A stretch of 64,000 bases of DNA from positions 84,479 through 148,478 of the forward strand of contig JAJTHE010000021.1 in NCBI GenBank assembly GCA_021298815.1, read 5' to 3'. Under the pieces are notes generated by a model. It saw only the letters and a program-made list of their open reading frames with translations, was not told where the DNA came from and made no database searches. Every line of letters starts with the position of its first letter. Position 1 is the stretch's first letter. Positions 30,238 through 50,045 of this stretch are shown here, in pieces. The position numbers and the translations under genes were made by a program. This DNA is from Betaproteobacteria bacterium (lineage in GTDB: Bacteria > Pseudomonadota > Gammaproteobacteria > Burkholderiales > CAIKXV01).

Positions 30238-31020
30238 ATGGACGCAGGCAGTGCAATGACCACGGAAGTGAAACGCGTGACCATCGACGATGGCGTGGCG
30301 CTGGTTACCCTCACCCGCCCGCAGGTGATGAACGCGGTCAACCTTCAGTTGCGCGCCGAGATCATCGAGTTCGCGCGCGAGCTCGATTCGGACCCCTCGG
30401 TCAGCGTCGTGGTGATCACCGGCGAAGGCGACAAGGCGTTCTGCGCCGGTGCCGACCTGAAGGAGCGGGGCACGCGCAGCGTCGCCGAGCTCTACGACGA
30501 GCGCCGCTTCTTCCGCAACCGCTGGGTGAACTCGGTGGCTTCGATGGCCAAGCCGACGATCGCTGCGATCAACGGCTACTGCCTCGGCGGCGGCTTCGAG
30601 CTGGCGTTGCAATGCGACCTGCGCATCGCGTCCGACAACGCGACCTTCGCGCTGCCTGAGGTCGGGCTGGGTTTCCTGCCCGGCGCCGGTGGCACGCAGC
30701 GGCTGCCGCGCGCGGTCGGCCTGCAGAAGGCGAAGGAACTGATCTTCACCGGCCGTCGCTTCGATGCTCGAGAGGCCGAGCGCCTCGGCCTCGTGCTGCG
30801 CGTGGTACCGCAGGCGGAACTGATGGCAGCGGCGATGGACCTCGCGCGGTCGATCGCCCGCCAGCCGCGCATGTCGCTCATCCAGGCCAAGATCGCGCTC
30901 AACGCGTCGCAGGAGACGATGCTGTCGGGCGGGCTGCAGGCCGAGAACGAGGCGTGGCTGCCGTGCCTGCTGTCGGATGCATGGAAGGGGCAGGTGGCAA
31001 AGTTCGGAGGCAAGGGGTAG
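30238..31020 (+). CDS. Enoyl-CoA hydratase/isomerase family protein
   Basis: VALVTLTRPQVMNAVN...VVVITGEGDKAFCAGADLKERG...AAINGYCLGGGFELALQCDLRIASDNATFALPEVGLGFLPGAGGTQRLPRAVG. Confidence 0.95.
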   Translation: MDAGSAMTTEVKRVTIDDGVALVTLTRPQVMNAVNLQLRAEIIEFARELDSDPSVSVVVITGEGDKAFCAGADLKERGTRSVAELYDERRFFRNRWVNSVASMAKPTIAAINGYCLGGGFELALQCDLRIASDNATFALPEVGLGFLPGAGGTQRLPRAVGLQKAKELIFTGRRFDAREAERLGLVLRVVPQAELMAAAMDLARSIARQPRMSLIQAKIALNASQETMLSGGLQAENEAWLPCLLSDAWKGQVAKFGGKG

Positions 31021-31098
31021 GATGCTTTCTGAATAAGGCATTCAAAACAATGAGTTCCGCGCAGTGGAACCGCGCGCATCTCCGAGGAGCCGATACGC

Positions 31099-32214
31099 AT
31101 GCCTGCCAGTACCCTGTTCTCGCCGTTCAGCCTGCGCGGGTTGCAGCTTCCGAACCGCATCGTCATTTCGCCGATGGGTCAGTACTCGGCGGACGAGAGC
31201 GGCCGCGCCACCGACTGGCACCTGATGCACCTCGGGCACCTCGCGATGTCGGGCTCGGGGTTGATGTTCACAGAGGCCACTGCGGTGCAGCCGCAGGGCC
31301 GCATCAGCCGGCACGACCTGGGCATCTGGTCCGACGACCATGTCGAGCCGATGAAGCGGGTGGTCGACTTCTGTCGCACGCATGGCGGCGCGAAGCTCGG
31401 CATGCAGCTCTATCATGCGGGCCGCAAGGGTTCGGTGTCGGTGGCGTGGGAGGGACAGAAGCCGGTGTCGGAGGCCGACGGCGGCTGGAAGACATTCAGT
31501 CCGTCGGCGGTCGCGCACGGCGGTCGCGCGATGCCGGTCGCGCTCGATGAACTGGGTATTCGCGAGGCGATCGAGGCATTCGCCGCCGCAGCGCGTCGTG
31601 CGGATGCGGTCGGCTTCGATACGCTCGAGATCCACGGCGCGCATGGCTACCTGATCCACAGCTTCCTCTCGCCGTTCGGCAACCATCGCACCGATGGCTG
31701 GGGCGGCTCGCGCGACAACCGGATGCGTTTCGCGCTCGCGGTGTTCGATGCGATCCGCGCGGTCTGGCCCGAGCGCAAGCCGTTGGGAATGCGGCTGTCC
31801 GCGACCGACTGGGCCGAGGGCGGGTGGTCGATCGACGACAGCGTCGAACTGTCCGCGAAGCTGCGCGAGCATGGCTGCGATTTCGTCACGGCATCGAGCG
31901 GGGGCGTGACCGCCGAGCAGCGGCTCAAGGTGCATCCTGGCTACCAGGTGCCGTTCGCCGAGCGTATCCGGCGCGAGGCGGGCGTTGCAACGATCGCGGT
32001 CGGGCTGATCACCGAGGCGCGCCAGGCCGACGAGATCCTTGCCACGGGCAAGGCGGACCTGGTCGCGCTGGCTCGCGGCATGATGTTCAACCCGCGCTGG
32101 CCCTGGCACAGCGCCGTCGAACTGGGCGAGTCGGTGTTCTATCCGAAGCAGTACGACCGGTCGCATCCGTCGATGCGTGGCGGCGACTTCCTGAAGCCGG
32201 TGCGCGACAGGTAG
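31099..32214 (+). CDS. NADH:flavin oxidoreductase, Old Yellow Enzyme family (YqjM/NamA-like)
   Basis: LFSPFSLRGLQLPNRIVISPMGQYSADESGRATDWHLMHLGHLAMSGSGLMFTEATAVQPQGRIS...GAKLGMQLYHAGRKGS...DTLEIHGAHGYLIHSFLSP. Confidence 0.95.
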   Translation: MPASTLFSPFSLRGLQLPNRIVISPMGQYSADESGRATDWHLMHLGHLAMSGSGLMFTEATAVQPQGRISRHDLGIWSDDHVEPMKRVVDFCRTHGGAKLGMQLYHAGRKGSVSVAWEGQKPVSEADGGWKTFSPSAVAHGGRAMPVALDELGIREAIEAFAAAARRADAVGFDTLEIHGAHGYLIHSFLSPFGNHRTDGWGGSRDNRMRFALAVFDAIRAVWPERKPLGMRLSATDWAEGGWSIDDSVELSAKLREHGCDFVTASSGGVTAEQRLKVHPGYQVPFAERIRREAGVATIAVGLITEARQADEILATGKADLVALARGMMFNPRWPWHSAVELGESVFYPKQYDRSHPSMRGGDFLKPVRDR

Positions 32215-32232
32215 CACACGACGGGCAGCACG

Positions 32233-32274
32233 CAAGAAGCAGCACACAAGAAGCAGCACACAAGAAGCAGTACA
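32233..32274 (+). repeat. Three tandem copies of a 14-bp unit, caagaagcagcaca (third copy has one mismatch)
   Basis: caagaagcagcaca caagaagcagcaca caagaagcagtaca, in the 89-bp gap between the OYE gene and tctC. Confidence 0.9.
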
Positions 32275-32303
32275 CGACAGCAAAACCTCTGGGAGGAGGC
32301 AAC

Positions 32304-33299
32304 ATGCGCAGGCGTTCGATCGCCCTTGCGGCGATGGCTGGTGTGCTGGCGGCGACCGCTGCCCCCGCGTTTCCACAGGCGGCCGGTAGCAGCGCCCGCG
32401 ACTTCCCGACGCGCCCGTTGCGTCTGGTCCTCGGCTATGCACCGGGCGGTACCACCGACATCCTGTCGCGGCTGCTGGCCGTGCACCTGTCCCAATCGCT
32501 CGGCCAGCCGGTGATCGTCGACAACCGGCCCGGCGCGAGTGCGATGATCGGCAGCCATGTGGTGGCCACGGCGGTTCCCGATGGGCATACGCTGCTGATG
32601 ACCCCCAGCGGCACGCACACATCGAACCTCAGCCTCTACCGGAAGGTTCCCTACGACACGGTGAAGGACTTCGCGCCGATCACGCTGTTCGCCTGGGTGA
32701 GCAACATGATCGTCACCCATCCGTCGACGCCGCTCAACAGCCTGCAGGACGTGATCCGCCAGGCGAAGGCATCGCCCGGCAAGCTGACCTATGCCTCGGT
32801 TGGCATCGGCTCGGTGTCGCACCTGTCGGCCGAGATGCTGAAGAACCTCGCGGGCATCGACGTCACGCACGTTCCGTACAAGGGCGGCGGCCCTGCGCTG
32901 GCCGCGATCGCGGCCAATGAAGTGACCATCATGTTCGCGGCGCTGCCCTCGGCCAGTTCGTTCGTGCAGGCAAAGCGCATCAAGCCGCTGGTGGTGACCA
33001 GCCCGAAGCGTTCGCCGACCTTGCCCGATGTTCCGACGGTCGCCGAGGCCGGCATCGCCGGCCTCCAGGTCATGGAGTGGTACGGTGCACTGGCGCCTGC
33101 CGGCACGCCGCGCGGCGTCGTGCAGCGACTGCGCGATGAACTGGTCGCCATCATCAAGCGTCCCGAGATCACGGCGCGCTTCATCGAGCTTGGCGCGGAT
33201 CCCGACTTCATGACGCCAGAGGCGTTCTCGAAGCAGATCGATGCCGATATCCGGATGTGGGCCGCCGTGGTCAAGCAGTCGGGCATACGCGCCGATTGA
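32304..33299 (+). CDS. TTT substrate-binding protein (TctC/Bug family)
   Basis: ARDFPTRPLRLVLGYAPGGTTDILSRLLAVHLSQSLGQPVIVDNRPGASA...VTHVPYKGGGPA. Confidence 0.94.
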   Translation: MRRRSIALAAMAGVLAATAAPAFPQAAGSSARDFPTRPLRLVLGYAPGGTTDILSRLLAVHLSQSLGQPVIVDNRPGASAMIGSHVVATAVPDGHTLLMTPSGTHTSNLSLYRKVPYDTVKDFAPITLFAWVSNMIVTHPSTPLNSLQDVIRQAKASPGKLTYASVGIGSVSHLSAEMLKNLAGIDVTHVPYKGGGPALAAIAANEVTIMFAALPSASSFVQAKRIKPLVVTSPKRSPTLPDVPTVAEAGIAGLQVMEWYGALAPAGTPRGVVQRLRDELVAIIKRPEITARFIELGADPDFMTPEAFSKQIDADIRMWAAVVKQSGIRAD

Positions 33300-33356
33300 G
33301 CGCGCGCACTGCCGCTTCCGCGATGGAGGAGGCAAGTGCGCGTCCCGGCGGTGGCG

Positions 33357-33608
33357 TCACCCGTGGTGCGCGCTGCGCTGCCGCTGCGCGCGCACGCGCT
33401 TGTAGACCATCGTGTAGAGCCCGGTGAACATCAGGATCGGCCAGAGGAAGACGCTGATCGCGACCCACATGGTCCGGCCATCCATCGGACCCCGCTCGCC
33501 GTTGCTGCTGCGCGAGACGGTGCCCTCGCTGAACAGATGGCGGACCGGGTAGGTCGCCAGGCCGAACAGTGCACCAATGACGAGGAACGAGACGATCATG
33601 CTGTTCAT
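33357..33608 (-). CDS. Small hypothetical membrane protein, two predicted TM segments
   Basis: MNSMIVSFLVIGALFGLATYPVRHLFSEG...MWVAISVFLWPILMFTGLYTMVYKRVRAQ. Confidence 0.6.
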   Translation of the reverse strand: MNSMIVSFLVIGALFGLATYPVRHLFSEGTVSRSSNGERGPMDGRTMWVAISVFLWPILMFTGLYTMVYKRVRAQRQRSAHHG

Positions 33609-33751
33609 GGTGAGACTCCCGTGGTCGGCACGCGCAGGCGGGCGGCGTGCGAAACTGGAGTCTGACATGCCAGATGGACAAATGCATGTGTCATTCTAGT
33701 GTGACGGTCCCGCAGAAGACACCTTCAGGCATTTTTCGATGCTGCGCTGCG

Positions 33752-33873
33752 GTCACTCCACCTTGATGTTCGCCGCCGCGACGATCTTGCGGAACTTGTC
33801 GATCTCGCTGCGGATGTGCGCGTCGAACTGTTCGGGCGACAACGGTGCCGGTTCCGCGCCGAGCGAGGCGAGC
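33752..33873 (-). pseudogene. Truncated 3' remnant of a tctC gene (39 codons plus stop), near-identical to the 3' end of 37756..38739
   Basis: 119/122 nt identical to 37755-37876; encodes LASLGAEPAPLSPEQFDAHIRSEIDKFRKIVAAANIKVE* with all three differences synonymous. Confidence 0.92.
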
Positions 33874-33888
33874 GGCCGGCGCACGGCA

Positions 33889-34923
33889 TCAGTCCGCCCG
33901 GATGCCCGCCTCCCTGATCACCGTCGCCCACTTGGTGATCTCTGCCTTGATGAATGCCGCGAACTGGGCGGGGGTGTTGCCGACCGGCTCGAACCCCTGT
34001 TCGAGCAGGGCCTGGCGGGTATCGGGCAGCGCCAGTGCAGCGGCCACGTCGCGCTGGAACTTCTCGGTGATCGCAGCCGGCGTTCCGGCAGCCGCCAGCA
34101 GCCCGCTCCACTGGTTGACCTCGAAGCCGGGAATGCCGCTTTCGGCGACCGTCGGCAGTTCCGGGAACAGTGAGGATCGCCTGTCGGTGGTGACCGCAAG
34201 CGCGCGCAGCCGCCCGGCCTTCACCTGCTGCAGCACGGAGGGCACGTTCGGGAACATCATGTGGACCTGTCCGCTCACCAGGTCCAGGATCGCCGGCGGC
34301 TGGCCCTTGTACGGCACGTGCACGATCCGGCTCCTGCTGGCGGACTTGAACAGCTCCGCGGCCATGTGCGCCGACGCGCCGGTGCCGGAGGACGCATAGT
34401 TCAACGCATCGGGCCGCGCCCTCGCCAGCGCGATCAGCTCGCGCACGTTCTTCGCCGGAACCGTCGGATGCACCACCAGCATCAGCGGCGAAGAGGACAC
34501 CAGCGTGATCGGCGCGAAGTCCCTGACCGGATCGTAGATCGGCTTGCGCGACAGGCTCGGATAGGTGGTGAAGGTCGCCGGGACGAGCACCACGGTGTAT
34601 CCGTCCGGCGCCGATCGCGCGGCCGCCTCGGTGCCGACGTTGCCGCCTGCGCCCGGCCGGTTGTCGATCACGACCGTCTGCTTCCACGATTCGCCGAGCT
34701 TCTGGCCGATCAGCCGGGACACGATGTCCGCGGCGCCGCCGGGTGTGAACGGCACGATCCAGCGGACCGGTTTCGCGGGCCACCCGGATGCCAGATCGCC
34801 GCTCGCCTGGGCCTGCACTCCGCATGTGCCGGTGCACAGCGCGAGGGCGGCAGCGCCTGCGCCTGCCCGGCGCGACAGGCTTGTCCGGCCGACCGGATGC
34901 GTCCGGCACGCAATGCCGCTCAT
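33889..34923 (-). CDS. TTT substrate-binding protein (TctC/Bug family), ATGA-coupled to upstream flavoprotein gene
   Basis: SGWPAKPVRWIVPFTPGGAADIVSRLIGQKLGESWKQTVVIDNRPGAGG...IVHVPYKGQPPA. Confidence 0.94.
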   Translation of the reverse strand: MSGIACRTHPVGRTSLSRRAGAGAAALALCTGTCGVQAQASGDLASGWPAKPVRWIVPFTPGGAADIVSRLIGQKLGESWKQTVVIDNRPGAGGNVGTEAAARSAPDGYTVVLVPATFTTYPSLSRKPIYDPVRDFAPITLVSSSPLMLVVHPTVPAKNVRELIALARARPDALNYASSGTGASAHMAAELFKSASRSRIVHVPYKGQPPAILDLVSGQVHMMFPNVPSVLQQVKAGRLRALAVTTDRRSSLFPELPTVAESGIPGFEVNQWSGLLAAAGTPAAITEKFQRDVAAALALPDTRQALLEQGFEPVGNTPAQFAAFIKAEITKWATVIREAGIRAD

Positions 34924-36656
34924 GCGGCGAGCGCGGCGGTAACCGCGCCGGGCGGGGGCTCGGCGGCGTCCAGGCCGGGCACCGGCCGCAGCGCATGCTT
35001 CACCGACCCGCCTTCGTTCCAGAGTACGAAGTTGCCGAGGAACCTCGCATCGTCGCGCTCAGGGAAGTCGAGGCGGCAGTGACCACCCCGGCTTTCCTCA
35101 CGCTGCAGGGCCGCCGTCGCCAGCATCCGCGCGACCTGCACCAGGTTGCGAGTCTCCAGCGACAGCCGCAGGCAGTCGAAGCGATCGCGCGCCGTCTCGC
35201 CGCGCACGCCGACATCCGCGAAGCGGGCCTCCAGCGCATCGAGCCGGGCCAGTGCGTGCTGCAGGCGATCGGCGCGCCGCACCAGGCCGACCGATTCGAC
35301 GACGAGTGCCTGGACCGCGTTGCGCCATTCCTCCGGCGAGTCGCCGCCGCTGCGTTCAGACCAGGAGGCCAGTGCCGCCACGCCGGACTGCCAGTCGCCC
35401 CGGTCGTCTGCCACCGACGGCGTCGCCTTGCATTCGAGCGCGGCTGCCATGCCGGCACGGAAGCCGAACACATAGCTGTCGATCAACGCCGCGCCACCGA
35501 GGCGGTTGGCGCCATGGATGCCCCCTGCCGCCTCGCCGCCGACGTAGAGGCCGGGCACGGTGCTGCGTCCCCATTCGTCGATACGCACGCCGCCGAGGTA
35601 GGTGTGCGGGCAACTCGTCACTTCCAGGAAGTCCCGGCTGAGGTCGACGCCGCCGTTGCGGAAGGTCTTGATGATGTCTGCCGATGCGCCGGAATTCGCA
35701 TGCTCGAACACGTGGCGGATGTCGATCCGCACGGCGTTGTGTTCGGTGCCACGGCCCTCGAACAGCTCCATCGCGACAGCGCGGTTGAGCATCGAACGCG
35801 TCGATCGCTCCATGCGTTCGGGGTCGTAGCGCGCCATGAAGCGTTCGCCGTCCCGGTTGAGCAGGTAGCCGCCTTCGTTCAGGAATCCGCTCGAATGCGG
35901 GGGATAGCCGGCGAGCTTCGCCGGTGCGGCGGTGATCATCTGGTAGTCGATGAATTCCATGTCGATCAGTTCGGCGCCGGCGCGCCAGGCCATCGCATAG
36001 CCGTCGCCGGTGATCGTCGGCGGCGAATCGTTCAGGGCGTGGAGCTGGGGGGCACCGCCGGTGGTGAGCACCGTCGCGCGTGCATGCACCACCACCGGCG
36101 TGCCTTCGCGGTAGCGGAAGCCCCAGGCGCCGACCACCCGGTCCTCATGGCGCAGCAGGTCGACCAGCATCACATGGTCCATCGGCGCGACGCCTGCGCC
36201 CTTCGTCTTGCGCGACAGCGCGTTCATCAAGGGTTTGCCCATCAGGCGGCCACAGTGGACGAGCCGCGCATGCCGGTGGGGGAATGCGCCCATCTTCTGG
36301 TCATAGGTGCCGTCGGCCAGTCGTGCCAGCCCCAGGCCCCAGGCATCGAGTTCGAGGGTGCGGTCGATCGACTCGGTGCACATCAGCATCGCCAGCCGGC
36401 GGTTGTTGAGGCCGAAGCCACCGGTGATCGTGTCCTCGAAGAACAGCTCGGGATTGTCGTCCGCGCTCGAATGCCCGATCGCCACCGAGTGGCCGCCGCG
36501 CGCCATCGACGAACTGCCCGATGCATAGGTGCCCTTGGTCAGCAGCATCGGCGTTATCCCCGACCGCAGCGCGGCTACCGCCGCCATCATGCCGGCCACC
36601 CCGCCGCCGATGATCAGCACGTCGGTCGACAGCCGCTCCACCTCATTCATGGCCAT
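34920..36656 (-). CDS. FAD-dependent oxidoreductase of the fumarate reductase/succinate dehydrogenase flavoprotein type
   Basis: TDVLIIGGGVAGMMAAVAALRSG...MARGGHSVAIG...TTGGAPQLHALNDSPPTITGDGYAMAWRAGAELIDMEFIDYQ...VPGLYVGGEAAGGIHGANRLGGAALIDSYVFGFRAG. Confidence 0.92.
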   Translation of the reverse strand: MAMNEVERLSTDVLIIGGGVAGMMAAVAALRSGITPMLLTKGTYASGSSSMARGGHSVAIGHSSADDNPELFFEDTITGGFGLNNRRLAMLMCTESIDRTLELDAWGLGLARLADGTYDQKMGAFPHRHARLVHCGRLMGKPLMNALSRKTKGAGVAPMDHVMLVDLLRHEDRVVGAWGFRYREGTPVVVHARATVLTTGGAPQLHALNDSPPTITGDGYAMAWRAGAELIDMEFIDYQMITAAPAKLAGYPPHSSGFLNEGGYLLNRDGERFMARYDPERMERSTRSMLNRAVAMELFEGRGTEHNAVRIDIRHVFEHANSGASADIIKTFRNGGVDLSRDFLEVTSCPHTYLGGVRIDEWGRSTVPGLYVGGEAAGGIHGANRLGGAALIDSYVFGFRAGMAAALECKATPSVADDRGDWQSGVAALASWSERSGGDSPEEWRNAVQALVVESVGLVRRADRLQHALARLDALEARFADVGVRGETARDRFDCLRLSLETRNLVQVARMLATAALQREESRGGHCRLDFPERDDARFLGNFVLWNEGGSVKHALRPVPGLDAAEPPPGAVTAALAA

Positions 36657-36665
36657 CTCGCCACC

Positions 36666-37559
36666 TCAGGATTGCGGGAGCAGCTTCGCTCCGAAGGCTT
36701 CGGTGCCGCAGATCGCGGTACGGTGCATCAGCCGGCGCAGCGGCAGCGCGTAGTCGCCCACCGCCATGTGCTGGGTCGAGTAGTTGTCCCACATGACCAG
36801 GTCGCCTGCCTGCCAGCGGTGCACGTAGACCGCTTCTTCCCGCGTGACATGCTCGTGCAGCCTGCGCAACAGCGGCGCGGAGTCTTCCTCGGACAGGCCT
36901 TCGAACGAGAAGGTATAGGTCCTGTTGACGTAGATGCAGCGGCGGCCGGTCTCCGGATGGGTGATCACCGCGTCATGCGAGAGGTCCGGCGTGGCGGCCT
37001 TCTGGGCAGCGGTGAGCGGCGGACGCGCGTGGTCCTTCGCGCGTTGTGCCCGCTTGCGTTCCTGGGCGCGGTGGTACTGGAAGACACCGCGCTGCCGGTC
37101 GAGCCAGCCACGGGTCTCGGCGTCCAGTGCATCGTAGGCATGGGCGGTGCTCGCGAAGTGCGTGTCGCCGAGCACCCTTCCGTCCTTCATCGGCACCTCG
37201 ATCGCATGCAGGAACGTGTAGCGGGCCGGGTGCTGCATGAAGCACAGGTCGGTGTGCCAGTCGTCACCGGCGTACGCAGAGCCGATCGACCGCTCGTTCT
37301 CCTTGACGTTCGAGATCAGGTGGATCTCGGGATGCCCGGGCAGTGCGAACTCCTGCCGGACATGGCGGTCCGGTTTCCCGAACCGCGCGGTGAACGCGAC
37401 CAGCTGCTCCGGCGCCAGCGACTGCCCGCGCAGGTAGATCATCCCGTTGCGGTCGAACAGGGCCTTCAGCGCGGCGAACGTCCCGTCGTCGATCCCCCGC
37501 GACAGGTCGAGCCCGCGCACCTCGGCGCCGAGCGGCCGGTCTCCGGCATTGATATCCAT
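36666..37559 (-). CDS. TauD/TfdA-family 2-oxoglutarate/Fe(II)-dependent dioxygenase
   Basis: AEVRGLDLSRGID...ALKALFDRNGMIYLRGQ...DDWHTDLCFMQHPARYTFLHAIEVP...VHRWQAGDLVMWDNYSTQHMAVGDY. Confidence 0.93.
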   Translation of the reverse strand: MDINAGDRPLGAEVRGLDLSRGIDDGTFAALKALFDRNGMIYLRGQSLAPEQLVAFTARFGKPDRHVRQEFALPGHPEIHLISNVKENERSIGSAYAGDDWHTDLCFMQHPARYTFLHAIEVPMKDGRVLGDTHFASTAHAYDALDAETRGWLDRQRGVFQYHRAQERKRAQRAKDHARPPLTAAQKAATPDLSHDAVITHPETGRRCIYVNRTYTFSFEGLSEEDSAPLLRRLHEHVTREEAVYVHRWQAGDLVMWDNYSTQHMAVGDYALPLRRLMHRTAICGTEAFGAKLLPQS

Positions 37560-37755
37560 GCTCCTCCCGCTTCACCCGCGCCCGGTGGTGTCCGCGGCGT
37601 CCAGTGTCGTCCTTGGCCGGTAGTGTCTCTGCGGACCCTTTCCGGACCTTGTTCGCGATGCTACGCACCGACGGGGCGTCGGAGCAATAGGGGCGGAGCT
37701 ATACAGGCCATTGTTGCAGCCTATGCAGATGGCCGTAAGCCCTCGCGCGCGGGCG

Positions 37756-38739
37756 TCACTCCACCTTGATGTTCGCCGCCGCGACGATCTTGCGGAACTT
37801 GTCGATCTCGCTGCGGATGTGCGCGTCGAACTGTTCGGGCGACAGTGGTGCCGGTTCTGCGCCGAGCGAGGCGAGCCGCGCCTTGATCTCGGGCAGCGCC
37901 ATCGAACGCACGATCTCCTGGTTGAGCTGGTTCACGATCGGGCGCGGCGTGCGGGCGGTGGTCAGGATGCCGAACCAGGGATCGAAGACGTAGCCCTTGA
38001 CGCCGGACTCGCCGATCGTCGGCACGTCGGGCAGTGCGCTCGCCCGGCTGCCGGTGGTGGTGGCGATCGCCAGCAGCTTGCCGGTGTTCACCAGCGGCAC
38101 CACGTTCAGGATCGGCGACAGGTTGAAGGTGATGGCGCCGGTCATCGCGCCGGTCATCGCCTCGGGGATGCCCTTGAACGGCACGTGCGTGACGTCGATG
38201 CCGGCGAGGTTCTTCAGCAGCTCGCCCGCGAGGTGGTTGGCGCTGCCGATGCCCGGGGTGGAATAGGTGAGGGTGCCCGGCTTGGCCTTCGCGAGCGCGA
38301 TGATGTCCTTGACCGACTTGATGCCCGAAGCGGGCGAGACCACCAGGATGCTGGGCACGTTCGCGAAGCGGGTGATGCCAGCGAAGTCCTTCACGGTGTC
38401 GTAGGGCAGGCTCTTGTAGAGCGCCGCCGACACCGCATGTCCGGCCGATACCGACAGCAGCGTGTGGCCGTCCGGCGTGGCCTTGGACACGATCTCGGCG
38501 GCGACGATGCCGCCGGCGCTCGGCCGGTTGTCGACGATCACCGGCTGGCCCCAGGCTTCGGTCAGCCGCTGGCCGGCGATGCGCGGCAGCAGGTCGGCCG
38601 TGCTTCCGGCGGAGAAGCCCACCAGGATGCGGATCGGGCGCTTGGGGTAGTCGGGCGCAGGTTGCGCCAGGGCCGCCAGCGGCAACAGGGTGAGGGACGT
38701 TGCTGCTGCCATCAGGATCGACCGCGACGCGTGTGCCAT
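37756..38739 (-). CDS. TTT substrate-binding protein (TctC/Bug family); paralogue of the 33752-33873 remnant
   Basis: QPAPDYPKRPIRILVGFSAGSTADLLPRIAGQRLTEAWGQPVIVDNRPSAGG...VTHVPFKGIPEA. Confidence 0.94.
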   Translation of the reverse strand: MAHASRSILMAAATSLTLLPLAALAQPAPDYPKRPIRILVGFSAGSTADLLPRIAGQRLTEAWGQPVIVDNRPSAGGIVAAEIVSKATPDGHTLLSVSAGHAVSAALYKSLPYDTVKDFAGITRFANVPSILVVSPASGIKSVKDIIALAKAKPGTLTYSTPGIGSANHLAGELLKNLAGIDVTHVPFKGIPEAMTGAMTGAITFNLSPILNVVPLVNTGKLLAIATTTGSRASALPDVPTIGESGVKGYVFDPWFGILTTARTPRPIVNQLNQEIVRSMALPEIKARLASLGAEPAPLSPEQFDAHIRSEIDKFRKIVAAANIKVE

Positions 38740-38810
38740 GCATGCCCTCCTCGTGAAGTACCCCTGCGAGCATAGACCGCGCCACCGTCGGTGACCAGTG
38801 GCCAGTGGCA

Positions 38811-39680
38811 TCAGGACCGCGGTTGCAGGGGAGGATGCGGTGGCTTGCGTGCCACGATCAGCCGGTAGCGCACCGCGCCGCGCAACTGCAGCAGCTCGAG
38901 CGTGCGCCCGCCGATGTCCGCCTGTTCGCGCAGGTCCCGGCCCAGCAGGCCCAGCCAGAAGGCGCGGCGCTGCAGCCGGGCACGCAGCGCGTGCAGCGCC
39001 TCGGCTTCGCCGAGCAGGATCAGGTCGGTGAGGTCCCGCTCGCCCACGCGCTCCAGGCCGGCCGCGTCGATCGCCGCGCGCCATGCGGCGGCAGGCGGCG
39101 CGACCGGGCAGCGCCACATGCGCTTGAACAGTGCGAGGTCCGCTTCGTCCTGCGGCGACAGCCCCGGCTCGGGCATGTCGTCGACGATGACCAGGTATCC
39201 GCCGGCGTCGAGGTGGGTAGCGAGGTTGGCGATGCTGCGTCCTGGATCCGTCGCGTGGATCAGCGATTCGATCGCGATCGCCAGGTCGAACGGCCCCGGC
39301 AGCGGATCGTCGTAGCTGCGGCATTCGAAGTGCAGTCGATCGGCGAGGTCGCGCCGCGCGGCCTCCTCGCGCGCACGCCGGACCTGCACCGGGCTCAGCG
39401 TGATGCCCAGCCAGCGGCCGCCGACCTTCGGCTGCAGGTCGAAGGCCGTGGCGCCGTAGCCGCAGCCGGCGTCCAGGATGCGCGGGTCGGCGGGCAGGGC
39501 AACGCCCTCGAGCATCAGCCGATGGATGACGGTCGGGCTCGCCGGCCCGCCCTCCGGGTCGCGCAGCGCACGGTGGATGGGCTGGGTCTGGCTTCCGGTC
39601 TGCGCGCGGTGGTCGCGCAGCGGCGCGAAGCGGTCCAGCCAGGCGTAGTAGCGGGCGATGCGGCGGGCGTGGGGGGTCAA
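38811..39680 (-). CDS. SAM-dependent methyltransferase (cyclopropane-fatty-acid-synthase-like)
   Basis: PRILDAGCGYGATAFDLQPKVGGRWLGITLSPVQVRRAREEAARRDLADRLHFECRSYDDPLPGPFDLAIAIESLIHATD. Confidence 0.85.
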   Translation of the reverse strand: MTPHARRIARYYAWLDRFAPLRDHRAQTGSQTQPIHRALRDPEGGPASPTVIHRLMLEGVALPADPRILDAGCGYGATAFDLQPKVGGRWLGITLSPVQVRRAREEAARRDLADRLHFECRSYDDPLPGPFDLAIAIESLIHATDPGRSIANLATHLDAGGYLVIVDDMPEPGLSPQDEADLALFKRMWRCPVAPPAAAWRAAIDAAGLERVGERDLTDLILLGEAEALHALRARLQRRAFWLGLLGRDLREQADIGGRTLELLQLRGAVRYRLIVARKPPHPPLQPRS

Positions 39681-39731
39681 GGCCGTCGCGTGCTCAGCGG
39701 CAGGACAGGCGCGAGGCGGCGGCGCACCCGT

Positions 39732-40691
39732 TCAGTTCAGCGGAATGCCGGCATCGCGCACGACCTTCGTCCAGCGCGCGAGGTCTTCCCGGATGTAGGC
39801 CGTGAACTGTTCTGGGCTGCCGGGGATCGTCTCGAGCGCCATCGAGGCGAACCGTTCGCGCACGTCGGGCCGTGCCAGCGCCTTGTGGACCGCTGCATTC
39901 AGCCGCCCGATCACATCCCTGGGCGTGGCCGCCGGCGCCAGCAACCCGGTGATGCTGGTGACCTCGAAGCCCTTGACGCCGGACTCGGCCATGGTCGGAA
40001 TGCCGGGCAGGACCGTGGAGCGTGCGGCTGAACTGATGGCGATCGGGCGGAACTTTCCACCCTTGACCTGTCCGACCGAGTTCGCGAGCTGGTCGAACAG
40101 GAGGTCCACGTGGCCGCCCATCAGCGCGGCACCGGCCGGACCGGTGCCCTGGAAGGGCACATGCACGAACTTCGTCCCGGTGATCGTCTGGAACAGTTCG
40201 CCGACCAGGTGCCCGACGCCGCCGGACCCCATCGTGAACGTCTCCGGCTTGCGCTTCGCGATCGCGATGAACTCCTTCATCGTGCTGGCCGGTACCGAGG
40301 GATGCACGACCAGCACGAACGGCGTCATGCCGATCATCGAGACCGGCGCGAAGTCGCGCACCGGATCGTACGGGCTCTTCTTCTGCAGGCTGGGCGCGAC
40401 GCTCAGCGTGCTGTTGGAGCCGAGCAGCAGCGTATAGCCGTTGGGTGCGGCACGCGCGACGAACTCGGTGCCGATCAGGCCCTGCGCGCCGCCGCGGTTC
40501 TCGATGACCATGTTCTGGCCGAGGATCTCGGTCAGCGCCGGGCCGATCGCGCGGGCGGTCACGTCGACGGTGCCCCCGGGCGGGAACGGGACGACGATGC
40601 GGACCGGTTGCGACGGATAGGCCTGGGCCAGCGCGCTGCCGGTCGCCAGCGTCGCGAGCGCCATGAGGATCGTGCGTGTCGAGTCGGTCAT
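39732..40691 (-). CDS. TTT substrate-binding protein (TctC/Bug family)
   Basis: ALAQAYPSQPVRIVVPFPPGGTVDVTARAIGPALTEILGQNMVIENRGGAQG...FVHVPFQGTGPA. Confidence 0.94.
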   Translation of the reverse strand: MTDSTRTILMALATLATGSALAQAYPSQPVRIVVPFPPGGTVDVTARAIGPALTEILGQNMVIENRGGAQGLIGTEFVARAAPNGYTLLLGSNSTLSVAPSLQKKSPYDPVRDFAPVSMIGMTPFVLVVHPSVPASTMKEFIAIAKRKPETFTMGSGGVGHLVGELFQTITGTKFVHVPFQGTGPAGAALMGGHVDLLFDQLANSVGQVKGGKFRPIAISSAARSTVLPGIPTMAESGVKGFEVTSITGLLAPAATPRDVIGRLNAAVHKALARPDVRERFASMALETIPGSPEQFTAYIREDLARWTKVVRDAGIPLN

Positions 40692-40698
40692 CGTCTGC

Positions 40699-41493
40699 TT
40701 ACTCCGGATTGCGCGCAGCATAGCCGATGCGCTGGAGGAACCCCTCCAGGATGGGATCGAAGACGTCCGGCCGTTCGAAGTTCGGCATGTGCGCGGCGCG
40801 ATCGATCACATGCCATTCCGCGTCGGGTATGCGCGTCGACATCAGTTCCATCTGCTCGAAGATCTCGCGTTCCTCGGAAACGCCGGCGACCAGCAGCGTC
40901 GGCACCCGGATCTCGGAAACCCGCTCGGTATGGTGGATCTCCGCGAGCAGCGCCTCCTCTTCCGCGGCCCGCACATGCAGCGGCGTCTTCAGGTACTCCG
41001 AGACCGCCCATTCCTTGACGGCCGGCGGGGTGTCCGCGTGCAGCTGCTTGTCGACCAGCCCGCGTGCGACGGACTCCCAGCCGCGTTCGCGCACGGCCCG
41101 GTGGAAACCCGCGACATCGCGGCCGCGCCTGGAGCAGGGCGATCCGATCAGCACCAGGCCCTTCAGGTTCGACCCGTGCTCGAGTGCGTAGAGCTGCGCG
41201 ACGATGCCGCCGACCGAGCATCCGACAAGCACGAAGTCGCGAAGCTGGAGTGCGTCGACGATCTCGACATAGTCGCGCAGGAAGTCCGCCATCGCGTAAC
41301 TGCCTTCGGGCTTTTCGGAATCGCCATGGCCGCGCAGGTCGAACGCGAGCACGCGGTAGCCGGCGGAGAACCGGTCGAGCTGCGGCTGGTAGAACTTCGC
41401 GCTGGCCGGCGTCGAATGGAAGCAGACGATCGGCCTGCCGCTGCCTGCTTCGAGATAGTGGAGGCGGCTTCCGCGTACGGTCAGGTAGGGCAC
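40699..41493 (-). CDS. Alpha/beta-fold hydrolase
   Basis: PIVCFHSTPASAKFYQPQLDRFSAGYRVLAFDLRGHGDSEKPEG...FVLVGCSVGGIVAQLYAL (GCSVGG nucleophile elbow). Confidence 0.9.
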   Translation of the reverse strand: MPYLTVRGSRLHYLEAGSGRPIVCFHSTPASAKFYQPQLDRFSAGYRVLAFDLRGHGDSEKPEGSYAMADFLRDYVEIVDALQLRDFVLVGCSVGGIVAQLYALEHGSNLKGLVLIGSPCSRRGRDVAGFHRAVRERGWESVARGLVDKQLHADTPPAVKEWAVSEYLKTPLHVRAAEEEALLAEIHHTERVSEIRVPTLLVAGVSEEREIFEQMELMSTRIPDAEWHVIDRAAHMPNFERPDVFDPILEGFLQRIGYAARNPE

Positions 41494-41565
41494 TGACGGG
41501 TTCCTTGGGAGGGGCGAACGGCTGCGAGTCTACCCGCCCTCGCTGCACGGATGTCTGTCCAGCGT

Positions 41566-44850: not shown

Positions 44851-45894
44851 TCACTCCGCCTTGATCCCGGCGGCGCGGATCACCTTGCCCCAGCGCTGGT
44901 GGTCGCCCGCGATGTAGGTCGCGAACGCGGCCGGGCTGCTCGACACCGGCATCACGCCGAACTCGACCATGCGCTTGCGCACGTCCTCGCCCTGCAGCGC
45001 GGCGACCGCGTCGGCGTTGACCCGGTTGACGATCTCCGCCGGGGTGCCGGCCGGCGCGAACAGCCCGTACCAGCTCACCGATTCATAACCGGGCAGGCCC
45101 GCCTCGGCGATGGTCGGCACGTCGGGCAGCAGTTCGAAGCGTTTCGCCGACGTCAGGCCCAGCGCACGCAGCCGGCCGGTGCGGATCGGGCCGATGGCGG
45201 TAGCCACGGTCGAGAACCCGGAGTCGACGTTGCCGGCGAGCAGGTCGAGCATCGCCGGCGCACCGCCCTTGTAGGGGACGTGGGTCATCCGGATGCCAGC
45301 CATGCTCATGAACAGTTCGGTCGCGATGTGGTCGGATGCCCCGGTGCCGCCGGAGGCGAAGGTGAGCTTGCCCGGATGGGTCTTCGCCAGCGCGATGTAG
45401 TCCTTCACCGTCTTCACCGGCAGCGCCGGGTGCACGGACAGCACGTTCAGCGCCTGGCCGACCGGCGTGATCGGCGCGAGGTCCCTCAGCGGGTCGAAGG
45501 ACATGCGCGCGTACATGTGCGGGTTGATCGCGACCTGCCCGGAGGTTGCCATCACCAGCGTGTAGCCGTCGGGCGCAGCCTTCGTGACCAGTTCCACGCC
45601 GAGGTTGCCGCCTGCGCCGCCGCGGTTCTCGATCACCAGCGGCTGGCCGAGCCGGGGCGCCATCGCCTGCGCGACGGTGCGTGCGCTGAGGTCCACGGCA
45701 CCGCCCGGGGCGAACGGCACGATCAGCCGGATCGGGCGCGACGGCCAGGACTGGGCATGGGCGGCCGTGGTGGCAGCCGCGAAGGCAGCCAGGATGCAGG
45801 CCGCCTGTGTCGTGGAAGACACCGCCGCGCGCCGCAGCCGCGAGGCGCGTCGGATCGCTGCGGGAGGCACTGGCTTGCGTGCGGTATCAATCAT
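44851..45894 (-). CDS. TTT substrate-binding protein (TctC/Bug family)
   Basis: AAHAQSWPSRPIRLIVPFAPGGAVDLSARTVAQAMAPRLGQPLVIENRGGAGG...MTHVPYKGGAPA. Confidence 0.93.
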   Translation of the reverse strand: MIDTARKPVPPAAIRRASRLRRAAVSSTTQAACILAAFAAATTAAHAQSWPSRPIRLIVPFAPGGAVDLSARTVAQAMAPRLGQPLVIENRGGAGGNLGVELVTKAAPDGYTLVMATSGQVAINPHMYARMSFDPLRDLAPITPVGQALNVLSVHPALPVKTVKDYIALAKTHPGKLTFASGGTGASDHIATELFMSMAGIRMTHVPYKGGAPAMLDLLAGNVDSGFSTVATAIGPIRTGRLRALGLTSAKRFELLPDVPTIAEAGLPGYESVSWYGLFAPAGTPAEIVNRVNADAVAALQGEDVRKRMVEFGVMPVSSSPAAFATYIAGDHQRWGKVIRAAGIKAE

Positions 45895-46024
45895 CAAAAA
45901 ATTATGCGGGGCGGTACAGGGCAAGTCAAACACGGCGGGGGTGCGGGACCGTGTCCGGCGCTGTTCCGGGCCACGGCGAGCAGGTAGCATCGGGCATCGG
46001 GGTCCAACGACGCGAGATGCCAGG

Positions 46025-46927
46025 ATGAGTACTGACCAGCCTTCGAAGCCGCTCCGTATCAGCATGACCCACCTGGGCGCAGCCGGTTGGGAGATCACCG
46101 ATGGCCGCACCATCGTCCTGCTGGACCCGTTCCCCTCGCGCATCCGCTACAAGGGAAAGGCCTTCGGCAACACGGACGCGCCTTCCTACCCGGGCGATCA
46201 CCGCCCGGTGTACGGGCTCGACGACCCGGTCTACTCGGACATCGAGGAGATCGACCGGCGCATCCGGGGTGCGCACTACGTCCTGGTCTCGCATTCGCAC
46301 TTCAACCACTGCATGGACGTGCCCTACATCGCGCGCAAGTACGGTTCGAAGGTGATCGGCAGCGGCAGCACGGCGAACATCATGGCCGCCTACGGGGTGC
46401 CCGATGCACAGATCTATGCCGTGCACGGCGGCCAGGACTACCAGTTCCCCGAGCTATCGGTGCGCGTGGTGCCCAGCCTGCATTCCCCGCTGGCCGAGCG
46501 GCACTACTTCGACGGCGATGCGGTGCCGCGCAACCTGAAGGTGCCGATGCGGCTGGGCGAGTTCGCCGAAGGGGGCACGTTCGCCTACCTGCTGCGCATC
46601 GGCGGGCGCCAGATCCTCATGTTCGGTTCGATGAACTTCATCGAACGCGAGGTCGAAGGGCTGCGCCCGGATGCCGCGCTGGTGGCAGCGGGAAAGGCGC
46701 GCCTGCACCTGTACGACTACACCGGCAGGCTGCTGCGCGCGCTCGGGCATCCGAAGCTCGTGGTGGCGACCCACTGGGACGTTCAGGCCGCACCCTACGG
46801 GGCGCCGCAGGACGATGCGCTGGCCCAGGCCGGGACGTTCGTCGAGGAGGTCCGCCGCACTTCGCCGCAGGCGCGGGTCGTCCTGCCGCGCCACTTCGAG
46901 ACGGTGGTGCTGGAGCCCGACGAATGA
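46025..46927 (+). CDS. Metallo-beta-lactamase-fold hydrolase with a variant HxHxNH motif
   Basis: TIVLLDPFPSR...GAHYVLVSHSHFNHCMDVPYIARKYGSKVIGSGSTANI...LHSPLAERHYFD...GGTFAYLLRIGGRQILMFGSMNFIER. Confidence 0.82.
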   Translation: MSTDQPSKPLRISMTHLGAAGWEITDGRTIVLLDPFPSRIRYKGKAFGNTDAPSYPGDHRPVYGLDDPVYSDIEEIDRRIRGAHYVLVSHSHFNHCMDVPYIARKYGSKVIGSGSTANIMAAYGVPDAQIYAVHGGQDYQFPELSVRVVPSLHSPLAERHYFDGDAVPRNLKVPMRLGEFAEGGTFAYLLRIGGRQILMFGSMNFIEREVEGLRPDAALVAAGKARLHLYDYTGRLLRALGHPKLVVATHWDVQAAPYGAPQDDALAQAGTFVEEVRRTSPQARVVLPRHFETVVLEPDE

Positions 46928-47925
46928 GCCGCCGCTGCGGTCTGACGACGATGGCGACCACGGCGCTGGTCGGCGCCCTCGTCCCGCTGGCTGCGTGCGC
47001 GCAGTCGGGCAAGGCCGAGCCCGCGTACCCGAACCGGCCGCTGCGCATGCTGGTCGGGTTCGCGCCGGGTGGCGCCAACGATCTGCTGGCCCGGATCATC
47101 GGGCAACGGCTGTCCGAAGCGTTCGGCCAGCCGGTGGTGGTCGACAACCGCACCGGCGCGGCCGGGATCATCGCGTCCGAAGTCGTGGCCCGCGCGCAGC
47201 CGGATGCGCACACCCTGCTGCTGGGTTCGATCGGTGCGCAACTGTTCGTGCCGCTCATCCGGCGCGGCGGCATGCCGTACGACACGCGAAAGGACCTGCT
47301 GCCGGTGAGCCAGGTCGGGCAGGCCGGGACGGTCCTCGTCGTACGCGCGAATTCTCCCGCGAAGACGGTCAAGGAACTGGTCGCGCAGGCAGCTGCCAAC
47401 CCGGGCAGGCTCACCTTCGGATCGGCCGGTGTCGGCAACTCGCTGCATATCGCGACCGAGCTCTTTCGCATCGCGGCGGGTATCGAACTGCTGCACGTGC
47501 CGTACAAGGGAAACGCACCGGCGCTGGCTGCCGTCCTGGGCGGCCAGCTCGACATGCTGTTCTCCGCGGTGCCGCCCGCGCTGCCGCTGGCCGAGGCCGG
47601 GAAGCTGCGCATGCTCGGCGTGTCGACATCGAAACGCCTGACCGGGATCGAATCGGTACCGACGATCGCCGAGGCGGGCGTCCCCGGCTACGAGATGGCG
47701 AGCTGGTACGGCGTGTTCACGAGTGGCGGCTCGCCCGCGCCTGCCGTCATGCGCGTGGCCGCCGAAGTGCGAAGCGCCGTCGAATCCCCCCGGATCCGCG
47801 AACTGATGCTGGCGCAGGGTATTGAGCCGCTTGCCAGTTCTCCTGTCGCGTTCGCGAAGTTCCTCGACGCCGAGTTCCGCAAGTGGGGAAAGGTGATCGA
47901 GTCTGCGAAGATCCAGCCGGACTGA
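46924..47925 (+). CDS. TTT substrate-binding protein (TctC/Bug family) with possible lipobox (LAAC)
   Basis: LVGALVPLAACAQSGKAEPAYPNRPLRMLVGFAPGGANDLLARIIGQRLSEAFGQPVVVDNRTGAAG...LLHVPYKGNAPA; ATGA-coupled to the MBL gene. Confidence 0.93.
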   Translation: MSRRCGLTTMATTALVGALVPLAACAQSGKAEPAYPNRPLRMLVGFAPGGANDLLARIIGQRLSEAFGQPVVVDNRTGAAGIIASEVVARAQPDAHTLLLGSIGAQLFVPLIRRGGMPYDTRKDLLPVSQVGQAGTVLVVRANSPAKTVKELVAQAAANPGRLTFGSAGVGNSLHIATELFRIAAGIELLHVPYKGNAPALAAVLGGQLDMLFSAVPPALPLAEAGKLRMLGVSTSKRLTGIESVPTIAEAGVPGYEMASWYGVFTSGGSPAPAVMRVAAEVRSAVESPRIRELMLAQGIEPLASSPVAFAKFLDAEFRKWGKVIESAKIQPD

Positions 47926-48012
47926 AGGCGAGGCTCGGGGCCTTCGTTGACGTGGGCTGCAGGCATCTCCCAGAATGCGACGATGGTCCCCCAACTCCCC
48001 GGGAGTCGTCCG

Positions 48013-48975
48013 ATGCCTTCCAGGCGTACCTGTCTTGCCAGCCTCGGCCTTGCCTGCGTCCCGTTCGCTGCCATCGCCCAGGACTGGCCCTCGAAACCGG
48101 TGCGCCTCGTCGTGCCCTTCGCGCCAGGCGGCGCCACCGACGTTGTCACCCGCATCTTCGCGCAGCGTTTCCAGGAGGCCTTCGGGCAGACCTTCCTGGT
48201 CGAGAACCGCGGCGGCGCTGGCGGCCTGCTCGGGGCCCAGGTCGTCTCCAAGGCCGCACCGGACGGCTACGCGTTCGTGATGGGCACGACCGGCACCCAT
48301 GCGGTCAACGCGACGCTGTACGAGAAGACCGGGTTCAACCCGCTGCGCGAATTCGCGCCGGTGACCCGGGTCGCACTGCTGCCGAACATGATCGTCTCGC
48401 ATCCGTCGCTGCCGGCGCGCACGGTGAAGGAACTGATCGTTCTCGCGCGGCGCCAGCCCGGGGTGCTGAACTACGCGGCGGCCGGCAATTTCCTCTACAT
48501 GAGCGGCGAGGTGTTCAGGCTGCAGGCCGGTGTCGACATGACGGGCATTCCGTTCAAGGGCAGCGGCCTGGCGATGACCGCGGTGATGAGCGGCGACGTC
48601 GCGCTCGCGGTGACCACGGTCGGATCGGCGCTGCCGCACGTGCGCGCGGGAAAGATACGGCCGATCGCGATCACCAGCCTGCGCCGGATGGCGCTGGTGC
48701 CCGACGTGCCCACGGTGGCCGAGTCCGGTCTGCCGGGGCACGAGACCGTCGCGTGGTACGGGTTGTTCGCGCCGACCGGCACGCCTGCCGCGATCCTGTC
48801 CAGGGTAGCCGGAGAGGTGGCCCGGTTGTCGAAGACGGGCGAGATGCGCGATGCGCTCGCAGCGCAGGGCGCCGAGGCGGTCGGCGATACGCCGGAAGCG
48901 TTCGCGGCCATCATGCGCAGCGATGTCGTGCGCTGGGGAGAAATCGTGCGCCGCACGGGCGCGCGGCCCGACTGA
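48013..48975 (+). CDS. TTT substrate-binding protein (TctC/Bug family)
   Basis: MPSRRTCLASLGLACVPFAAIAQDWPSKPVRLVVPFAPGGATDVVTRIFAQRFQEAFGQTFLVENRGGAGG...MTGIPFKGSGLA. Confidence 0.93.
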   Translation: MPSRRTCLASLGLACVPFAAIAQDWPSKPVRLVVPFAPGGATDVVTRIFAQRFQEAFGQTFLVENRGGAGGLLGAQVVSKAAPDGYAFVMGTTGTHAVNATLYEKTGFNPLREFAPVTRVALLPNMIVSHPSLPARTVKELIVLARRQPGVLNYAAAGNFLYMSGEVFRLQAGVDMTGIPFKGSGLAMTAVMSGDVALAVTTVGSALPHVRAGKIRPIAITSLRRMALVPDVPTVAESGLPGHETVAWYGLFAPTGTPAAILSRVAGEVARLSKTGEMRDALAAQGAEAVGDTPEAFAAIMRSDVVRWGEIVRRTGARPD

Positions 48976-49023
48976 TCGGCCGGCCCGCTCGGCTGCTGTC
49001 GTCCCGCGAACGCCGACGCCGAC

Positions 49024-49905
49024 TCAGCTGCCCGCGCGGCGGCGCGCTTCCTGCGCGCAGGCCTCGAGCAGCCGGGACAGGTCTGCCCGCACCCGCTCGA
49101 AGCCTTCGTTGCGCCGGAAGGTCTTCACGTCCATGAAGTTCTTCTTGTTGATCTCGATCTGGATCGAGTCCACGCCGTTGCCGGGCGCGCCATGGCGCCG
49201 GATCAGTTCGTTGCCGACATAAGGGTCGTTGACGGTCACGGTCCAGCCGTAGGAGCGCAGAGTGTCGACGACGAAGGCCATCGACGCCGGCGAGGCGGTG
49301 CGGCCGTTGAGGTCGCTGATGCAGAAGTCCGGCCGGGGCTTGCCGGCATCGCTGTGCGTCGGTGCGCCGACCGCCGACATGCAGTGGCAGGACAGCTGCA
49401 TCGCATAGCCTGCGCGGCCGTGCGCGGCCTGGATCAGCCGCAGCAGTTCCGCATGGTAGGGACGGTGGTAGCGCGCGAGGCGCTCCTCTATCTCGGCCGG
49501 GGTCAGCCGGCGCTCCTGCATCGGTTCTCCGTAGCGCGACAGCGTCTTGATCAGGCCGAGGCCGCGCAGGGCGGTCGGCGTCGGCTTCAGCGGCGCCGGG
49601 AACGTACCGTCCACCACCGCCGGGTCGAGATCGAGCTCGTCGCGGTTCACGTCCATGAAGGTGTTCGGGAAGCAGGCGTAGAGCAGGGTCCCGCCGGCCT
49701 TCGGCGTGTGGGCGAACAGCTCCTCGACGTACATCGACGCGTTGTCGTGCAGCACGGTGAACGGCAGGGGCGAGCGGAACTCGTGCGGATACTCGCGCCC
49801 GCTGCGCGATACGTCGACCACCATTGGCGCGGGTTCGCCCACGGGATCGTGGCGGATCCAGATGCCGGGGAGGATCGCGACGGCGGATTCGGTGGCGTTC
49901 GGCAT
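49024..49905 (-). CDS. N-formylglutamate amidohydrolase family protein
   Basis: MVVDVSRSGREYPHEFRSPLP...DNASMYVEELFAHTPKAGGTLLYACFPNTFMDVNRDELDLDPAVVDG...SDLNGRTAS...INKKNFMDVKTFRRNEGFERVRADLSRLL. Confidence 0.9.
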   Translation of the reverse strand: MPNATESAVAILPGIWIRHDPVGEPAPMVVDVSRSGREYPHEFRSPLPFTVLHDNASMYVEELFAHTPKAGGTLLYACFPNTFMDVNRDELDLDPAVVDGTFPAPLKPTPTALRGLGLIKTLSRYGEPMQERRLTPAEIEERLARYHRPYHAELLRLIQAAHGRAGYAMQLSCHCMSAVGAPTHSDAGKPRPDFCISDLNGRTASPASMAFVVDTLRSYGWTVTVNDPYVGNELIRRHGAPGNGVDSIQIEINKKNFMDVKTFRRNEGFERVRADLSRLLEACAQEARRRAGS

Positions 49906-50045
49906 GGCGGCTCCTGTGGGAAGGCGGAAGGCTGTCCGGCGATCGGAACGCGATGGTACCGTCTGGCGCTATGATCCTGCCCGGGCCATCGACGCCACTG
50001 CCCGCCAGAGGCAGGCGCCGCGGTGGGCCGTCCCGGAGAGCTCGC

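Follow-up and report, generated by a model that had tools for sequence, protein, structure and literature searches.

Gene order around tctC_A and the 122-bp repeat

In the window, by which we mean the whole stretch of 64,000 nucleotides that was analysed, an intact tripartite tricarboxylate transporter receptor gene, tctC_A, is followed on the same strand by three co-directional genes and then by a detached stretch of 122 bp that repeats its own 3' end (Table 1). The interval listed for tctC_A is the one analysed; the start may lie slightly further upstream, and 37756-38783 was used in the comparison with relatives. The three intervening genes are tightly packed, with a gap of 9 bp between the dioxygenase and flavoprotein genes and an overlap of 4 bp between the flavoprotein gene and tctC2, and 195 bp separate tctC_A from the dioxygenase gene. 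Since these are the only genes of the insert, it carries no integrase, recombinase or replication gene. Its G+C content (0.688) is close to that of the window (0.694).

Table 1. Coordinates of the features at the tctC_A locus (positions in the window)
Feature	Position	Strand	Evidence
103-aa ORF	33357..33668	-	Directly after tctC_A in five relatives; no Pfam family
Second 122-bp repeat copy, very probably the displaced native 3' end of tctC_A; detached from any gene	33752..33873	-	119/122 vs 37755-37876; continuity in relatives
Inserted module, 3881 bp (4003 bp including one repeat copy)	33874..37754	-	Empty site in seven congeners
Second tctC (tctC2), last gene of the module	33889..34923	-	PF03401, E=2e-75
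FAD-binding fumarate reductase / succinate dehydrogenase-type flavoprotein gene	34920..36656	-	PF00890, PF02910
TauD/TfdA-family dioxygenase gene, first gene of the module	36666..37559	-	PF02668, E=8e-60
First 122-bp repeat copy, the 3' end now serving intact tctC_A	37755..37876	-	
tctC_A, intact tripartite tricarboxylate transporter receptor gene	37756..38721	-	PF03401, E=6e-64

Sequence comparison within the window showed that 33752-33873 and 37755-37876 are identical at 119 of 122 sites at a constant offset of 4003 bp, and that similarity collapses just outside the match at both of its ends. The repeated stretch holds the final 39 codons together with the stop codon and 2 nt. The module is bordered on both sides by a direct repeat, with tctC_A intact on one side. 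All three differences (fragment/gene GCG/GCA, CCG/CCA and TTG/CTG) are synonymous. They lie close together, in codons 6, 10 and 11 of this 39-codon stretch, those in codons 10 and 11 at neighbouring bases, and from there on about 90 bases are identical. The tctC2 stop codon ends at 33889, in a different frame and 15 bp (33874-33888) from the fragment. Recomputation therefore confirmed what an earlier note on this DNA had described, namely a match at 119/122 with abrupt ends, three synonymous differences and a position 15 bp past the stop codon of another tctC. Because the next best match to the 122-bp stretch in the same genome reaches only 79% over 79 bp, the repeat reflects neither chance nor the ordinary similarity among tctC paralogues.

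Translation of the fragment was considered as a candidate function and rejected as unsupported, its frame being open for only 55 codons and a GTG start giving 43 aa. This GTG lies in the fragment frame just after the tctC2 stop, and the region 33753-33889 could in principle encode a 43-aa peptide with the C-terminus of tctC_A, although there is no evidence of its use. The leftover 3' end probably has no function.

The empty site in congeners

The region 33300-38800 was searched against 60 related genomes, and larger pieces of eight congeners were then compared with the window. In genomes of the same genus, tctC_A and the segment 33345-33873 adjoin, and their matches overlap by about 120-131 bp. 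In seven congeners (G001-G004 and G006-G008) a single tctC_A, with a DNA identity of 83-91%, runs straight into the DNA that in the window lies downstream of the fragment, and in five of these the 103-aa ORF is found beside tctC_A, with protein identities of 75-91% (L010, L011, L012, L014 and L015). When the flanks of the window were joined with 33874-37876 (the module and one repeat copy) omitted, they aligned unbroken to all seven congeners at 83-90% over 0.9-1.4 kb (G007 89%, G003 88%, G008 88%, G006 88%, G004 83%, G002 90% and G001 85%, the alignments of G002 and G001 beginning near the fragment, where the ORF region differs). An empty site with one repeat copy is thus present in these seven congeners; the insertion site was not found in congeners G005 and G009. 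Moreover, the native DNA downstream of tctC_A in G007, G003, G008 and G006 aligned with the DNA downstream of the fragment and not with that downstream of the intact copy, and for 37560-37754 a search of eight congeners at E<=1e-3 yielded a single match, of 45 bp at 80%.

Since the single tctC_A of the relatives directly joins the DNA now found below 33752, the fragment is very probably (at a probability of about 0.9) the original 3' end of tctC_A beside its native downstream DNA, displaced by about 4 kb by the inserted module. The insertion left tctC_A whole, with its last 122 bp at both borders of the module. The earlier note had viewed the fragment as recently copied and akin to the paralogue 4 kb away, which remains valid, and further as a truncated allele or second paralogue, which the empty sites in relatives contradict. 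High identity and exclusively synonymous differences would be in keeping with truncation of a separate, recently functional paralogue or allele at 33752-33873, but the fragment occupies the native position of tctC_A next to native downstream DNA and received just one of the three changes (see below), and this reading is almost certainly wrong. Likewise, the alternative of an independent element, such as a small RNA or peptide, finds no place in the relatives, which carry this sequence as part of tctC_A, at its end, and not apart from it.

An assembly artefact, the 122-bp repeat having led the assembler to place the module here, might be suspected, since the genome is a draft (5.39 Mb, 173 contigs, completeness 88%) and the repeat contains a run of about 90 identical bases. 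However, non-homologous DNA abuts the repeat at the boundary 33873/33874, so that at least one real molecule probably carries a repeat-module junction; in addition, the repeat copies differ at three sites and the G+C content of the module fits the window. We therefore regard an artefact as very unlikely.

The wider region is a hotspot rich in tctC genes. The window (1-64000) is collinear with eight congeners, and blocks of one to several genes have often been gained or lost along it (for example 31011-33358, 38802-41556 and 45754-50031). The eighth congener, G010, lacks tctC_A except for its last bases: approximately the last 25-30 bp of the 3' end remain beside the 103-aa ORF (L031, 10000-10459), an independent change bordered in the same gene end. 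No gene-end overlap like the one described here was found at other junctions between the window and its relatives.

Age of the duplication and distribution of the module

Comparison with relatives allowed each of the three synonymous changes to be assigned to one of the copies. GCA and CCA of the intact gene are bases found in no relative, which places two changes in the intact copy, while TTG of the fragment, equally found in no relative, places one in the fragment (the L015 row of the site table is out of register owing to the offset used, and the gapped alignment of L015 agrees with the assignment). Two synonymous changes are expected in the intact gene, which is presumably under selection. 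A single random change is synonymous with a probability of approximately 0.24, or 0.34 if it is a transition, and since only one of the three changes arose in the fragment, the pattern can be explained without selection on the fragment. The assignment thereby ruled out selection on the fragment as inferred from the purely synonymous pattern, and the argument in the earlier note that such a pattern would be unexpected for neutral decay no longer holds. The copies differ from each other at 3 of 121 sites, whereas each differs at 7 of 121 from G007, the nearest relative, so that either the duplication postdates the split from the nearest species sampled or the copy was derived from a very close strain.

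At strict thresholds the flavoprotein gene was found in none of the ten congeners and in no other genome among 398 sampled in the order and 369 in the class. When one genome per species was scanned, a search that detects only close relatives, just two draft genomes, L021 (84%) and L022 (71%), yielded close relatives of the flavoprotein. In L021 the flavoprotein gene is followed by a tctC 72% identical to tctC2, and tauD (77%) lies in the opposite orientation; within the genus of L021 the flavoprotein occurs in 1 of 21 genomes. The L021 module has no direct repeat of at least 40 bp, and the L021 genome contains no close tctC_A. This independent occurrence argued against the idea that the module always inserts with gene-end repeats, which was rejected. 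The L021 contig is labelled as a Bordetella parapertussis MAG, a species label that looks doubtful for a genome of 3.6 Mb with at least 150 tctC-type matches.

Absence of the flavoprotein from the congeners and from nearly all genomes searched indicates that the insert was acquired from elsewhere, and its sporadic distribution fits a horizontal gain of the module. Carriage on a plasmid was considered and discarded: no plasmid DNA matched the fragment, and plasmid-borne relatives of the flavoprotein reached only 33-37% identity.

Route of integration and known systems

Integration by a single crossover through short gene-end homology appears to be the best mechanism for the observed arrangement, and we hold it with roughly even confidence. 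One crossover between tctC_A and a circular or circularised DNA carrying the module and a short 3' piece of tctC_A would yield an intact tctC_A, followed by the module and then by the leftover 3' end. A direct repeat of the gene end together with a whole gene is the product expected from a circle with a short 3' piece. When one-sided homology to lacZ was used in E. coli, a diagnostic PCR indicated partial duplication of lacZ for 56 of the 60 Lac- integrants, and 14 sequenced integrants had duplications of 109-950 bp that were explained by a single crossover with a truncated circle (PMC3240628). The circular intermediate is putative, the insert having neither an integrase nor a replication gene, and a donor with tctC_A joined to the module was found neither among the 60 related genomes nor in the one-per-species scan or the order and class samples. 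The closest module found, that of L021, counts against a single crossover in having an inverted tauD, no direct repeats and no close tctC_A.

Two other routes would result in the same end product. The first is homology-facilitated illegitimate recombination, in which a close strain with the module behind its tctC_A supplied linear DNA. Recombination would have taken place within tctC_A, and the far end of the donor DNA would have been joined illegitimately to the recipient's tctC_A at a point 122 bp short of the gene end; we regard this scenario as clearly less probable than not. The product would be identical if the illegitimate end fell upstream within the gene, and the process has been proposed for effector-immunity modules of Vibrio cholerae, in which the displaced old immunity gene stays downstream (PMC5361080). 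However, none of the genomes searched has a tctC_A natively followed by the module, and in the E. coli assay this process was rare and was predicted to leave the target with a deletion rather than a duplication (PMC3240628). A tandem duplication of tctC_A, followed by insertion of the module between the copies and deletion of most of the second copy, is unlikely. Gains and losses of several genes are frequent across this region in the genus, but three steps are needed, and intermediates were not encountered: each of the seven congeners that have tctC_A (7/7) has one copy and an empty site.

One may ask whether tctC gene ends, being so numerous, serve in these genomes as recurrent landing sites for modules that carry a tctC end and arrive by short-homology crossover; we consider this a long shot, and were it true, the leftover end would allow a precise loss of the module later. 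The present repeats, with about 90 bp of identity, could permit RecA-dependent loss of the module. The locus provides a clean and relatively dated example of how a catabolic and transport module joins a variable, gene-rich region without breaking its target gene. It also cautions against taking such remnants of genes, or the synonymous differences they carry, for functional paralogues that were truncated.

In summary, the locus is a real, well-resolved and ordinary footprint of gene gain by recombination and gives no indication of a new system. Genomic islands at tRNA genes restore the 3' end of their target gene upon integration. As in such islands, the target gene stays intact here and the insert lies between direct repeats of that gene's 3' end, but the insert has no integrase, the target is a protein gene and the inserted DNA is only 4 kb long. 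A similar trend is known from type VI secretion effector-immunity arrays and Rhs loci, where the arrival of a new module at a gene leaves the former 3' part behind, downstream of the module (PMC5361080); in contrast, the C-terminus and thus the protein is unchanged here, the cargo is metabolic, and nothing suggests that selection maintains the leftover. Campbell-type integration of pJA2 at lacZ in E. coli (PMC3240628) likewise left the gene end directly duplicated on either side of the insert, over 109-950 bp there and over 122 bp here, with the difference that the present case is a natural event between wild DNAs, known from its integrated product alone.
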